The translations under genes and the position numbers were made by a program. The notes below the pieces were generated by a model. It saw only the letters and a program-made list of their open reading frames with translations, made no database searches and was not told where the DNA came from. DNA of 64,000 nt from Actinomycetospora straminea (lineage in GTDB: Bacteria; Actinomycetota; Actinomycetes; Mycobacteriales; Pseudonocardiaceae): NCBI RefSeq assembly GCF_028737255.1, contig NZ_JAQZAN010000005.1, positions 1 through 64,000 on the forward strand, read 5' to 3'. This document shows, in pieces, positions 21,000 to 56,450 of the stretch (position 1 is its first letter; every line of letters begins with the position of its first letter).

Positions 21000-21629
21000 G
21001 TGAGCACCATCGACTCGCTGCTCGACGAGGCCGGGCAGACCTTCGCGGACGAGGCGGGCATCGCGCTGCGCGACGAGCCCGCGCCGCTCTACCGCCTGCT
21101 CGTGCTGAGCGTGCTGCTCTCCCGGCGCGTGCAGGCGAAGCTCGGGACGCGGGCGTGCCGCGAGCTCGTCGACGCCGGCTACGGCACCCCGGAGCGCGTG
21201 CGCGACGCGTCGTGGGAGGACGTCGTGGCGACGCTGGGCCGCGCGAAGTACACGGGCACCGAGCAGACCACCACCGCCCTGCAGGAGGGCGCCCAGCGCG
21301 TCCTCGACGAGTGGGGCGGCGACCTGCGGCGCCTGCGGAAGGCTGCCGACGGCGACGTCGCGACCCTGCGCGAGCACCTCACCGCGTTCCCGCGCCTCGG
21401 CCCGGTGGGCGCCGACATCTTCGTGCGCGAGGTCCAGGCCGTCTGGCCCGAGTACCGCCCCCACCTCGACGAGAAGGCCCTCGCCGGCGCCGAGAAGCTG
21501 GGCCTGCCCACCGACGCGGGGAAGCTGGCCGAGCAGGTGGCGGGCGACGACCTCGCCCGCCTCGCCGCCGCCCTGGTCCGCGCCGACCGCGACGACCAGG
21601 TGCGGGAGGAGGTCGGCGGGGACGATTAG
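21000..21629 (+). CDS. Endonuclease III-like HhH-fold protein
   Basis: 209 residues, all-helical. It resembles the endonuclease III / HhH-GPD glycosylase superfamily in layout: LYRLLVLSVLLSRRVQAKLG, TPERVRDASWEDVVATLGRA, LTAFPRLGPVGADIFVREVQ (helix-hairpin-helix-like) and a C-terminal VWPEYRPHLDEKALAGAEKL. The catalytic Lys of EndoIII and the 4Fe-4S cluster cysteines are not evident. Such proteins are annotated as endonuclease in many actinobacteria, but the activity is unproven. GTG 21000. Its stop lies 46 bp before the repeat field. Confidence 0.72.
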   Translation: MSTIDSLLDEAGQTFADEAGIALRDEPAPLYRLLVLSVLLSRRVQAKLGTRACRELVDAGYGTPERVRDASWEDVVATLGRAKYTGTEQTTTALQEGAQRVLDEWGGDLRRLRKAADGDVATLREHLTAFPRLGPVGADIFVREVQAVWPEYRPHLDEKALAGAEKLGLPTDAGKLAEQVAGDDLARLAAALVRADRDDQVREEVGGDD

Positions 21630-21673
21630 GCGGCTGGTCGGGCTCGCGTCGATCCCGGTGCGGCGACCCTGCT

Positions 21674-22235
21674 CGCGACCTATGCACAAGATCGCACCGA
21701 GACCGACCACCCCGTCGGCGAGCGAGCACCACCCGGCGGGCACCCCCGGCCGCCGTCCGACCGACGACGCCGCCATCGGCGCGCACCTCGCCACCGCAGC
21801 TCGACCTCGCACCGAGCTCGGCTCGCGACGTATGCACAAGATCGCACCGAGACCGACCACCCCGTCGGCGAGCGACCACCACCCGGCGGGCACCCTCGGC
21901 CGCCGTCCGACCGACGACGCCGCCATCGGCGCACCTCGCCACCGCAGCTCGACACCGCACCGAGCTCGGCTCGCGACCTACGCACAAGATCGCACCGAGA
22001 CCGACTGCCCTGTCGGCGAGCGAGCATGACCCGGCGAGCACGCGACCGCACCCCAACCGACGACGCCGCCATCGGCGCGCACCTCGCGCCCGCAGCTGGG
22101 CATCGCACCCTGCTCAGCGATGACCTATACACAAGATCGCACCGAGTCCGACCACCCTGTGGTCGAGCGATCGCTACCAAGGCGGGTGATCGCGCCTGGA
22201 CCGACGGCGCCAGCCCCGTGACCCGCGTCGGCACG
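21674..22235 (+). repeat. Four tandem ~148-bp repeats with core CTATGCACAAGATCGCACCG
   Basis: The core begins at 21681, 21831, 21979 and 22126 (periods 150, 148, 147). Units 1 and 2 are nearly identical over their whole length. Unit 3 is diverged in its middle and unit 4 is recognisable mainly through the first about 55 bases. Each unit runs from the core through GAGACCGACCACCCCGTCGG and GACGACGCCGCCATCGGCG to a GCACCGAGCTCGG end. Confidence 0.9.
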
Positions 22236-22520
22236 GCGAGCTGGCCCCCGCTCCCCTGGTGGCGACGCCGAGGCCGGCCCAGCGGCCGGTCGGGCTCGCC
22301 GGACCCCGGGGTGGGCAGCGAGGGCGCCGTTCGCTGCTTACTCGCGGCAGAACGGGGCCGCACGCGACGCGCGAGGACGCGCCGACGCTCAGCCCTCCGT
22401 GGCACGGGCCAGCCGGTCCGCCAATCCCGACGTCGCGGCGAGCTGCCAGCCTGTCTGCCAAGCCCGGCCTCTGCCGGGCGCCGGCACCGGACACGCCGTC
22501 CTCCGGAAAGCCCGGTCGGT

Positions 22521-22935
22521 CTCGACGCGATCACGCGCACACGTCCCCGCCGGCACCCCCGCTCATCGCCGACGCCCGCCGTCGTCGCACTCGATGCAAT
22601 CTTGTGCACAGCTCGCGCAGAGCGGCCGCCACCGCTGACCTCCGGTCGGTCTCGACGCGATCTTGGCATAGCTCGCCGGCGGTGCCTGCCATCACCGACG
22701 CCCGCCGTCGTCGCACTCGATACGATCTTGCGCGTAGCTCGCCTCAACGTGCCGCCGCCGACGCCCTGCCGCCGTCGCACTCGACGCGATCTTGTGCATA
22801 GCTCGCCCACGAGGCCCGCCACCGCCGGCGCTGGCCGTCGCTCCCGACGCGATCTTGTGCGTAGCTCACCCACGGTGCCCGCCCTCAACCAGGCGCACCC
22901 CGTCGCTCTCGACGCGATCTTGCGCATAGCTCGCC
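22521..22935 (-). repeat. Seven ~64-bp repeats carrying the same core, inverted
   Basis: Cores of the form CTCGACGCGATCTTGTGCAT followed by AGCTCGCC start at 22521, 22590, 22651, 22716, 22780, 22843 and 22908 (periods 61-69). The first copy is the most diverged and the fifth the closest to consensus. Their complement, GAGCTATGCACAAGATCGCG, is the core of the four upstream units. The stretches between cores are themselves partly alike (CGACGCCCGCCGTCGTCGCA), which argues against CRISPR spacers. Confidence 0.9.
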
Positions 22936-22950
22936 CGCAGGCCCGCCGTC

Positions 22951-22990
22951 AGACGCGCGCTCTCATCGCTGTCGACGAGAGCGCGCGTCT
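22951..22990 (-). terminator. emb terminator hairpin
   Basis: AGACGCGCGCTCTC (22951-22964), a 12-base loop, and the perfect complement GAGAGCGCGCGTCT (22977-22990). The right arm includes two bases of the emb TAG stop. A 14-bp GC-rich stem right at the 3' end is a likely intrinsic-type terminator, although a T-run is absent. Confidence 0.7.
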
Positions 22991-25900
22991 AACCGACCGC
23001 GCCCTGGTACGGCACGTCGACGTACTCCTCGCGGGCGAGGGTCGGGCCGCGCTCCCAGCCCGGCTTCGAGCGCTCAGTCGTGGTGACCCCGTAGCGCCCG
23101 GTCGGCAGGTCCCGCACCACGAGGTCGACCCGGCCCCACGGCTTGGCGGGCTGCGACCCCGGCGCCACGGCCGTCGCCAGCCGCACGTACGTCACACCGA
23201 CGGTGTCGAAGCGCCAGACCCCGCCGCGCAGGCGGTTGTCCTGCAGCCCGTAGTACGCCGAGGTGAGGTCCTCGTCGGCGTGGATGCGGATGGTCGAGGG
23301 CGGGGCGATGCCGTCGTGGACCGCGACCTGGTCGACGCACGGCCACAGCACCGACGACATCTGGTCGACCAGTACCGGCTGTCCCGCGAGCAGCGGCGCG
23401 ATCGGCTCCGGGCGGGCCAGGAAGGGCTGGGCGACGGCGAGGCGGTCGGAGCCGCGCTCGCCGGTCGAGTCCACGACCACCCGCACGAACGTCGGATCGC
23501 CGGGCGCGTCGACCAGCGAGACCGGCCGCTGCTGCCAGGTGCGCTCGTCGGCCTGCGGGAGGTAGTCGATCCCGGTGCGCCCGAGCACCCGCGGAGCGGT
23601 GGCGGGACCGTCGGCGAACTCCACCGACACCCGCTCGTCGGGCGGGCCGGACTCGAGCAGCGGCACGACGACGTCGGTCGCGCCGGAGTCGGCCGGCACG
23701 GGGTACCAGCCGGTGACCAGCGTGCCGCGGCCGCTCGAGTCGTCGGTGACGTCGTGCCACACGCGCCCGAGGCCCGGGACGGGTTCGGGGACGGGCGCGA
23801 CGGTGTCGTCGACCATGTCGCCCGTGGTCACCGCCGGCGTCACGGGCGCGCCGAGCAGGGCCGGTGTCGGGCGCAGGACGCTGACGTTGTCCTCGAGCCC
23901 GCAGCCCTGCCGGACGACGTCCTTCGCGTTGCCGAGTGCCACCGTCCACCCCGGGTACTGCCGCAGCGGCGCGAGCACCATGACCGCGATCAGCCCGATC
24001 ACCACGCTCCCGCACGCCACGGCGAGCAGCGCGCGGTCGGGCTCCGGGCGGGGCAGCCAGCGCTGCGGCCAGCGCCGCAGCGACCAGTGCGCCCACACCG
24101 CGGCGAGCACGGCGATCCCGACCCACACGAGCGGGTTGCGCAGGAAGATCGGCCCGAAGTGCGGGGCGAGCAGGTTCTGGCTCAGCGGCGTCGGGTAGGG
24201 GTCGGCGTGGTCGCCGAAGAACTGGCCGCGGTCGGTGTAGGGCCGCCACAGGTTCCAGCCGGCGTAGCTCACCGACGTGGCGAGCACGAGCACCGCGACC
24301 CCGCCGACGGTGGCCAGCGCGCGGTCGTGGCGCGGCATCGGGCCACGCAGCAGGGCGAGCGCGATGAGCACGGTGCCGGAGGCGGCGATCACCGGGAAGT
24401 GCAGCACCCACTTCGTCGGGCTCGCCGCGACCAGCACGAAGGCGAGCGCGGTGGTCGCCGCGGAGTGCAGCAGCACGCGGCGCAGGGCGTCGTCCTCCGG
24501 CCCGCGCAGCCCGCTGCCCGCCGCGACCAGCAGCGTCAGCCCGAGCGTGATGAGGATCGGCGCCCGCGCGGCCCACGGCGTCCGGCCCGGTCCGAGCAGG
24601 GTCTGGTAGTGGACGAGCTCGTCGTACCAGGGGACGGTGTCGTAGTAGTACGCGTGCACCGCGGACGCCTCGATGACGTCGCCCAGCGACGCGTCGGCGA
24701 ACGCCACCGGCACCGCGATCGACGACGCGGCCGCGAGCACCAGCAGCAGCGTGACCTGCTGGCGCCGGGGCGCGGCGACCATGTGCGGCCAGGCCCGCGG
24801 GATCTCCACGAGCAGCGGGGCGACGGCGACGAGCCCGGTCGGCGAGCAGGCGAGGGCCAGTGCGGCGGCCATGACGGCGCCGACGTAGAGGAAAGGGGTG
24901 CCGCGGTCGCGGGCCAGCTCGACGAGCAGCAGCACGACCACCGAGAGCAGCACGATCAGCGGCTCGGGGCGCAGCGTCAGCCCGAACGGCAGCCACCACA
25001 GCAGGTGCGCCGTGAGCAGCGCCCACGGCACCCAGGCGCGGCGGACGTTGGTGCGCCGCGAGATCAGCACGAAGAAGGCGCGCAGGAGCGCCCAGGTCGC
25101 CAGGCCGTAGAGCAGCGGCAGGCATCGCTGCCAGACGATCCCCCAGCCCCCGATCGCCCCCCAGGCCTGCATCGCGTACTGCGAGGCCACGAAGGGGTTC
25201 TCGGTGACGTTGAACATGTAGACGGCGTTGCCGATGTAGCCCGCCTCGCCGGCGTCGCGCGCCATGAGGGGGTACCAGCTGTCGTCGAAGTTCATCGGCG
25301 CGACGAGCACCCAGCCCGCGGAGATCGCGAGCAGCAGCCCGTCGGCCCACGACAGGTGGCGACGCAGCCGGCCCGGCCACGACCGCGGCGCGACCCAGCC
25401 CCGCGCCCGCCGCCAGCGACCCTGGCGGTAGGCGAGCACCAGCAGCACCGTGAGCGACGCGAGGTGCGCCACGAGCAGGACCGTCTTGAGCACGCCTGGC
25501 GTGGAGGCGTACCGGTCGTCGGTGCGCACCGAGACCCCGAGCCCCGCCGCCGCGGGCGTGCCGTCGGTGCTGGTGGTCAGCTGGGCCATGATCGGCGGGA
25601 GGACGTCGGCGCAGTCGCCGCAGGCGAGCGGCAGGGGCGCGCCGTCCTGGGTGACCCGCAGCCCGGTGGCGTCGACCTCGATCGCGAGGACGCAGTCACC
25701 CGGCGGCACCGGCCCGGCGGCCACGGTCCGCCCGGAGACCGTGAGGCTCGCAGCGGCGCCGGTCGAGGCGAGCACGAGGCCGCCACCCGTCGGGTTCCCG
25801 GGCAGGGTGCGCAGCACGTCCCCGCCGGCGCGCAGGGCGGCGCAGGGCACCGTCGCGGAGAACCCGAGCGGTCGCGGCGGGTTGAGGGCGAGCTGGGTGG

Positions 25901-26102
25901 AGATCGGGGCGCCGGGGGTGGCGGCCGGGCCGGGCCACGTGACGGTGGTGTCCTGCGCGGTCACCGGCGCGAGCGGGACCGCGAGGCCCAGCACGATCGT
26001 CAGCAGGGCCCAGACGAGCAGCGACCGTCCGCTGAGGCGAGGGGCCCGGTCGGGCTCGTCCTGCGGCGAGGCGGAGTGGTCGGCGCGCACCAGCGTCGTC
26101 AC
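22989..26102 (-). CDS. emb: Arabinosyltransferase, EmbA/B/C family
   Basis: 1037 residues, typical of Emb proteins. These GT-C membrane glycosyltransferases extend cell-wall arabinan from decaprenyl-phosphoarabinose. There is an N-terminal helix, an extracytoplasmic jelly-roll-type domain (about 50-190), then about a dozen helices. The loop VAPMNFDDSWYPLMARDAGE carries the catalytic Asp pair of GT-C enzymes, followed by GYIGNAVYMFNVTENPF. The C-terminal about 350 residues form the extracellular carbohydrate-binding part (QMSSVLWPCVDQVAVHDGI). Only one copy is seen, unlike the embCAB triplet of mycobacteria. It lies downstream of the decaprenyl-phosphoribose genes but is separated from them by the repeat field. 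Confidence 0.95.
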   Translation of the reverse strand: MTTLVRADHSASPQDEPDRAPRLSGRSLLVWALLTIVLGLAVPLAPVTAQDTTVTWPGPAATPGAPISTQLALNPPRPLGFSATVPCAALRAGGDVLRTLPGNPTGGGLVLASTGAAASLTVSGRTVAAGPVPPGDCVLAIEVDATGLRVTQDGAPLPLACGDCADVLPPIMAQLTTSTDGTPAAAGLGVSVRTDDRYASTPGVLKTVLLVAHLASLTVLLVLAYRQGRWRRARGWVAPRSWPGRLRRHLSWADGLLLAISAGWVLVAPMNFDDSWYPLMARDAGEAGYIGNAVYMFNVTENPFVASQYAMQAWGAIGGWGIVWQRCLPLLYGLATWALLRAFFVLISRRTNVRRAWVPWALLTAHLLWWLPFGLTLRPEPLIVLLSVVVLLLVELARDRGTPFLYVGAVMAAALALACSPTGLVAVAPLLVEIPRAWPHMVAAPRRQQVTLLLVLAAASSIAVPVAFADASLGDVIEASAVHAYYYDTVPWYDELVHYQTLLGPGRTPWAARAPILITLGLTLLVAAGSGLRGPEDDALRRVLLHSAATTALAFVLVAASPTKWVLHFPVIAASGTVLIALALLRGPMPRHDRALATVGGVAVLVLATSVSYAGWNLWRPYTDRGQFFGDHADPYPTPLSQNLLAPHFGPIFLRNPLVWVGIAVLAAVWAHWSLRRWPQRWLPRPEPDRALLAVACGSVVIGLIAVMVLAPLRQYPGWTVALGNAKDVVRQGCGLEDNVSVLRPTPALLGAPVTPAVTTGDMVDDTVAPVPEPVPGLGRVWHDVTDDSSGRGTLVTGWYPVPADSGATDVVVPLLESGPPDERVSVEFADGPATAPRVLGRTGIDYLPQADERTWQQRPVSLVDAPGDPTFVRVVVDSTGERGSDRLAVAQPFLARPEPIAPLLAGQPVLVDQMSSVLWPCVDQVAVHDGIAPPSTIRIHADEDLTSAYYGLQDNRLRGGVWRFDTVGVTYVRLATAVAPGSQPAKPWGRVDLVVRDLPTGRYGVTTTERSKPGWERGPTLAREEYVDVPYQGAVG

Positions 26103-56313: not shown

Positions 56314-56450
56314 GCAGCGAAGGCGTCCCTCGCTGCCTCCCACGCAGCCAGGGCGTCCCTCGCTCCCCGAGCCGCGCGAGCCGACGCGCGAACAGCTGCG
56401 CAGCGAAGGCGTCCCTCGCTGCCTCCCACGCAGCCAGGGCGTCCCTCGCT
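56314..56450. repeat. 51-bp direct repeat pair containing four 13-mers
   Basis: Copies at 56314-56364 and 56400-56450 are identical over 51 bp. Each contains GGCGTCCCTCGCT twice, 30 bp apart, giving four copies of that 13-mer. They lie in the 260-bp gap between the sppA start and the sensor-kinase stop. Parts of the gap also form hairpins (GCAGCGA with TCGCTGC). Confidence 0.88.

Follow-up and report, generated by a model that had tools for sequence, protein, structure and literature searches.

Inward-facing core pairs form a lineage-specific intergenic repeat family in Actinomycetospora and build a two-sided array in A. straminea

The repeat array which separates two convergent genes of Actinomycetospora straminea is one locus of a lineage-specific repeat family in Actinomycetospora. 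The family has a strict geometry, with a new locus in the window (the whole stretch of 64,000 nucleotides that was analyzed) and older conserved loci elsewhere. With a probability of roughly 0.58, we read it as a lineage-specific, REPIN/MITE-like mobile intergenic repeat which was locally amplified in the window. This mobile-repeat reading is favoured by the dispersal of the repeat, its orientation rule, its gap preference, the existence of insert-free relatives, the conservation of the arms and the lack of overall co-variation between them.

The window was searched with R1, a 33-position sequence profile built partly from window copies. Eleven asymmetric cores of approximately 32 bp (four plus, seven minus) were found to occupy the 1,359-bp gap between the convergent genes. 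The upstream gene (21000-21629, plus strand) encodes 209 amino acids with no Pfam match, and its TAG stop codon (21627-21629) adjoins the insert. The downstream gene (22989-26102, minus strand) encodes an Emb-type arabinosyltransferase (PF04602, PF14896). By comparison with the six closest relatives having the same gene pair, the insert comprises everything between the two stop codons (21630-22988). The plus cores lie at 21677-21708, 21827-21858, 21975-22006 and 22122-22153; their starts are 150, 148 and 147 bp apart, and they belong to a left array of direct units of about 148 bp (21671-22170; 3.4 copies and 87% matches by tandem-repeat comparison). The minus cores lie at 22514-22545 (a divergent copy), 22583-22614, 22644-22674 (a copy with a one-base deletion), 22709-22740, 22773-22804, 22836-22867 and 22901-22932, and repeat comparison placed a right array of units spaced by about 63-65 bp at 22583-22947. 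The nearest opposed arms are separated by 360 bp. A perfect 14-bp inverted repeat with a 12-nt loop (22951-22990), terminator-like as a stem but lacking a T run, overlaps the stop codon of the downstream gene; no stem-loop followed by a T run, as in an intrinsic terminator, was found in 21500-23100.

Profile and repeat comparison thus confirmed the sequence-only reading, which had described opposed arrays of direct units of about 148 bp and inverted units of about 64 bp with 11 copies in all, and comparison of the units bore out its statement that the core is kept while the flanks drift. The interval had also been called gene-free, and none of the mechanical ORFs present in 21630-22988 was accepted by the codon model. 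CRISPR, which had likewise been dismissed, does not fit the repeat structure: the 148-bp units are homologous throughout, spacers included, and the second series is inverted. The core had been said to match no nameable repeat family; consistent with this, no Rfam match was obtained inside the array at E≤1, the only two sub-threshold matches being near 23.5 kb. Assembly collapse, raised as a possible artefact, is unlikely since the units are mutually different and the assemblies of other species carry the core at shared gene junctions.

An ungapped matrix derived from the same alignment as R1 recovered 10 of the 11 window cores, with scores of 36 to 52, and nothing further in the 64-kb window at ≥12 bits; the core at 22644 was detected by the profile only, because its one-base deletion hides it from the matrix. 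No match reached 20 bits when the window was dinucleotide-shuffled 15 times, the top score being 9.3. As the profile was partly built from window copies, independent weight comes from the other loci. The consensus of 49 aligned cores is GAnCTATGCnCAAGATCGCGTCGAGACCGACG, and T5, C11, G14, A15, T16 and G25 are invariant among them. Inspection of the alignment revealed no conserved terminal GTAG in these cores. A CGTC is present, but internal to the core, and units with A at position 20 cannot form the full 5-bp stem that surrounds it.

A search of the genome and of relatives, proposed in the sequence-only reading as a check, revealed a dispersed family. Since the best 150 candidates per genome were scored, the counts which follow may be low. 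The A. straminea genome (G000) has at least 50 cores at E≤1.2e-4 and at least 51 at E≤0.01. The 50 stronger matches fall at 10 loci on eight contigs (C4 twice, C16, C21, C22, C33, C44 twice, C52 and C56), each of which has both core orientations. Among the best 150 candidates per genome, matches at E≤0.01 were obtained in 8 of 18 Actinomycetospora genomes, A. straminea included, with at least 32 in G005, 25 in G010, 12 in G007, 6 in G008 and 4 in G004, and one weak match each in G002 and G011; the other 10 yielded none at this threshold. When 200 genomes from 46 genera of the family were searched with stricter filters, three matched at E≤0.001; all were from Actinomycetospora, which contributed at least 10 genomes to the sample, and none was from outside it. 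An exact 20-letter pattern gave no match in GTDB contigs, a set from which records close to the window's genome may have been excluded. Neither blastn against phages and plasmids nor an exact-pattern search of viral contigs gave a match, and a limited literature search found no description of this Actinomycetospora repeat family.

For analysis of the geometry, 49 loci around core matches were fetched in addition to that of the window, representing part of the matches in other species. Four of these (L050, L078, L079 and L080) had no core of 20 bits. The remaining loci and the window gave 48 clusters, of which 38 had at least two cores and 10 just one. In 35 of the 38 multi-core clusters every plus core precedes every minus core, so that the recurring unit is an inverted doublet, as in REPs and REPINs; the exceptions were two mixed clusters and one with two plus cores, and no cluster was outward-only. 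The tightest pairs are near-palindromes of 63 bp (13 cases), and the widest have inner gaps of about 500 bp.

Core clusters are enriched in tail-to-tail gaps. Both neighbouring genes were called for 44 clusters, of which 24 are convergent, 17 tandem and 3 divergent. Convergent genes flank 23 of 43 core junctions compared with 12 of 154 core-free junctions with a gap >60 bp (Fisher p=3e-10), and 54 of 359 when all core-free junctions are counted; the comparison set was drawn from loci L035-L083, and these figures are approximate as gene calls came from a home-made codon model. Where the left gene reads inward, the first core lies ≤100 bp from the stop codon of that gene in 26 of 35 clusters. 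An association with tRNA genes was discarded, as a tRNA was present in only 3 of 27 loci scanned, each time >2 kb from the cores, and there was none in the 64-kb window.

Intergenic gaps also contain a second palindrome (about AGCGAAGGCGTCCCTCGCT, frequently doubled), including 56315-56335 and 56401-56421 of the window. In the window and L035-L083, 6 of 10 distinct strict matches to it lie between opposed cores, at L036, L041, L044 and L077. A possible decayed copy of such a motif (GCAGCGAGGGCGCCGTTCGCTGC) was seen by eye at the centre of the opposed arrays (22315-22337), where the strict pattern misses it.

Six close relatives (L084-L089: A. lemnae, A. callitridis, A. cinnamomea, an uncultured MAG, A. 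chibensis and strain NBRC 106375) share the gene pair of the window without cores, and in them the two genes abut, overlap or nearly abut. The second gene was identified in these genomes by strand, length and shared tail sequence, and in L089, where the gene caller missed it, by eye. The more distant L090-L095 were left out, as the identity of their neighbouring genes was not established. In A. lemnae and the MAG a CTAG is common to both stop codons, and the insert-free junctions of the six relatives have a TA or CTAG context suggestive of a target site. Comparison with these relatives revealed no terminal inverted repeat and no exact target-site duplication at the window locus. In both A. cinnamomea (L086) and G004:C167 the 209-aa gene of the window is present in two tandem copies, the second of which adjoins the second gene in A. 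cinnamomea.

Other loci are shared between species. At 6 of the 10 A. straminea loci, flanking genes located cores at the corresponding junction in another species. Both flanks matched for L035 (with L061; L055), L036 (with L062; left side also with L054, right side with L077), L038 (with L044, L045 and L046; also with a G010 copy, recognised from the tail of its gene), L039 (with L053) and L040 (with L076), and one flank matched for L037 (with L063). From their translations we take the flanking genes to encode DNA polymerase III delta', a TauE-like exporter, HisC and AroE. In five comparisons at three shared loci, identical columns amounted to 270/329 in the arms, 57/112 in the loops and 109/207 in the flanks; in 16 comparisons between different loci the values were 814/1177 (69%), 183/481 (38%) and 361/693 (52%), respectively. 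Arms are thus more alike at shared than at unrelated sites and flanks are no more alike, which argues for selection on the arms. Individual arms at shared loci vary from 22 to 31 identical positions of 32 and are not always closer than arms from different loci, the mean likeness among 47 A. straminea arms being 24.9. As this conservation exceeds that expected of a dead mobile repeat, a host function may be the main story. The tail of the TauE-like gene carries cores in five species, a different palindrome (by eye) in five others that lack cores, among them G011, where the sequence is cut by a contig end, and neither in eight. The second palindromic motif was seen by eye at the TauE-like gene tails of G008, G017, G002, G012 and G011.

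Whether a hairpin or a sequence is conserved was assessed by a co-variation test, in which Watson-Crick pairing between the two arms of a pair was compared with that of permuted partners, more pairing being expected if pairing is selected. Over 41 pairs, 992 Watson-Crick cells were counted versus 985 ± 10 after permutation (p=0.26). The 13 compact pairs matched their true partners worse than permuted ones (313 versus 334, p=0.9985), which we read as left and right arms forming separate lineages. For 16 pairs with gaps of 5-90 bp the p value was 0.65, and 12 widely spaced pairs had a slight excess of pairing (Watson-Crick p=0.054; with G-U p=0.025). An RNA hairpin as the conserved entity is therefore unsupported overall, and the lack of overall co-variation indicates that the arms are conserved mainly as sequences. 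Three simple pairs have stable predicted hairpins of -54 to -66 kcal/mol, and given the strength of these predicted folds an RNA role for core pairs is possible.

The mechanism that we propose would have as its unit of dispersal an inward-facing pair of asymmetric cores of about 25-32 bp, whether packed into the 63-bp near-palindrome or separated as opposed arms by up to a few hundred bp. Such pairs are inferred to be mobile and would be placed preferentially in tail-to-tail gene junctions. One insert would have entered between the stop codons of the window's convergent pair in A. straminea, and tandem duplication on each side of it probably produced the 4+7 array. The cores are predicted sites of protein recognition; each would most likely serve a trans-acting protein rather than being just half a hairpin, and candidates for this protein would be a mobilising nuclease or a host DNA-binding protein. 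Two suggestions of the sequence-only reading, a non-autonomous element and a protein-binding array, are both live and may both be true.

With respect to a mobiliser, the only transposase family searched, PF01797 (Y1_Tnp, RAYT), was found in 0 of 18 genus genomes and in 5 of 14 control genomes. Compact copies from G010 and from two A. straminea loci, L048 and L049, resemble one another outside the core as well, with a longest match of 241 bp at 77%, which would be expected for copies of a mobile repeat. Ends resembling terminal inverted repeats were seen by eye in L048, L049 and L070; the corresponding pattern matches all 18 genomes, core-free ones included, and is therefore uninformative genome-wide.

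One lead came from genes with DUF222, which Pfam lists as a domain of unknown function. Of 100 DUF222 matches in six genomes, 30 loci were inspected, and some DUF222-HNH (13E12-type) gene copies of three related species (G004, G005 and G007) have the core at their 5' border. Four such genes (L182, L183, L184 and L208) are preceded by a core in sense orientation, and the sequence ahead of that core is unrelated; L075, at a contig end, starts in the same way. In G005, single cores (L057, L058, L059 and L082) are likewise followed by sequence common to the 5' region or the tail of a DUF222-HNH gene copy. At L182, the sole one of the four with its 3' side visible (the others run into contig ends), no core was found on that side. 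As the core-bearing copies are mutually related, one or two events may account for the association. None of five A. straminea DUF222 loci inspected had a core, and a search of 30 array stretches for DUF222 remnants yielded two weak matches, both in L048, and no clear coding remnant. Other DUF222 genes, mostly in G000 and G008, are preceded by a palindrome like CTGAGACGGTCTCAG (8 of 30 loci). This palindrome precedes some DUF222-HNH genes in G000, G008 and G010 (e.g., L180, L187 and L199); it was discarded as a dispersed repeat in its own right, since comparison by hand placed 11 of its 17 distinct sites across six genomes upstream of a DUF222 match, at a distance of no more than about 400 bp. 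A TTCGAAC-type box, presumably SOS-like, stands just before many DUF222-HNH start codons. A limited literature search found no title linking DUF222 genes to such repeats. It is conceivable, if unlikely, that this is an HNH-based, REPIN-like actinobacterial system, in which DUF222-HNH genes would use the border core and the inward core pairs would be non-autonomous satellites at tail-to-tail junctions, kept there as boundary elements. The REP13E12/DUF222-HNH repeats (PMC10589994) resemble the present case in that the core borders the 5' side of some DUF222 copies, but differ in that the Actinomycetospora arrays have no clear DUF222 coding remnant and the five inspected A. straminea DUF222 loci no core.

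The selection apparent on the arms could also mean that the element belongs to the host, inward cores at gene 3' ends terminating transcription in both directions, or halting RNA polymerase as a roadblock, and being kept for that purpose. Enrichment in tail-to-tail gaps, closeness of the first core to the left gene's stop (26 of 35 clusters), the predicted hairpins of the three simple pairs and arms kept at shared loci where loops change would all suit such a boundary. We nevertheless consider it rather unlikely as the principal explanation, given that three clusters have divergent and 17 have tandem neighbours, that no T-run terminator was found at the window's array, where the nearest opposed arms are 360 bp apart, that arms do not co-vary overall, and that 10 of 18 genus genomes gave no core match. 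The mobile repeat itself may still mark a boundary where convergent genes meet.

Clustered, opposed, asymmetric sites of about 25 bp with invariant positions would also be expected if the arrays, in the manner of Ter or parS clusters, bound a protein that organises the chromosome or arrests replication forks. A fork trap requires two groups of sites, one on either side of the terminus, whereas all 10 A. straminea loci have both orientations; this, together with the restriction of the cores to one lineage, makes such a role very improbable. Slippage in a gene-poor gap could turn an arbitrary sequence into tandem units with drifting flanks, but a neutral minisatellite is hardly credible when the core recurs at further loci and in further species, obeys a strict orientation rule and has conserved arms.

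REP families often have hundreds of copies, whereas the Actinomycetospora family is present at tens of copies, has no RAYT in 18 of 18 genomes and appears to have expanded into an array with two sides, one of 148-bp and one of 64-bp units. In PMC3116915 and PMC3733652, REPINs and REP-BIMEs are short extragenic units in inverted pairs with variable spacers, some in clusters, and the family resembles them in its inverted extragenic pairs, variable spacers and preference for convergent and unidirectional gaps. The REPs of the same sources are 20-40-bp palindromes with a terminal GTAG or CGTC tag, while the Actinomycetospora unit is asymmetric and about 32 bp. The possibility, noted in the sequence-only reading, that the core is a known REP is therefore not borne out: RAYT is absent and there is no palindromic unit with a conserved terminal GTAG or CGTC tag. 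CGTC-type REPs are a further comparison, being said in PMC3733652 to lack a dedicated transposase and to occur mainly as inverted dimers with some large clusters, as in the present family; however, their 8-9 bp stems, CCA-like tail and unpaired CGTC end are not conserved in the Actinomycetospora core. The word "actinobacteria" is absent from the main text of PMC3733652. The compact copies, being small, non-coding, near-palindromic and dispersed, resemble MITEs, but no parent transposon was found, and the window locus gave no firm terminal repeats or target duplications.

Among bacterial populations of small inverted repeats tied to a nuclease, RAYT-REPIN is the best known. The Actinomycetospora family has the layout of REPINs without a RAYT, in one genus so far, and would allow the question to be put of what moves and what preserves such repeats. 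It is recent enough for filled and unfilled junctions to be compared and old enough for some loci to be shared between species, and the DUF222-HNH link provides a concrete candidate for the mobiliser.
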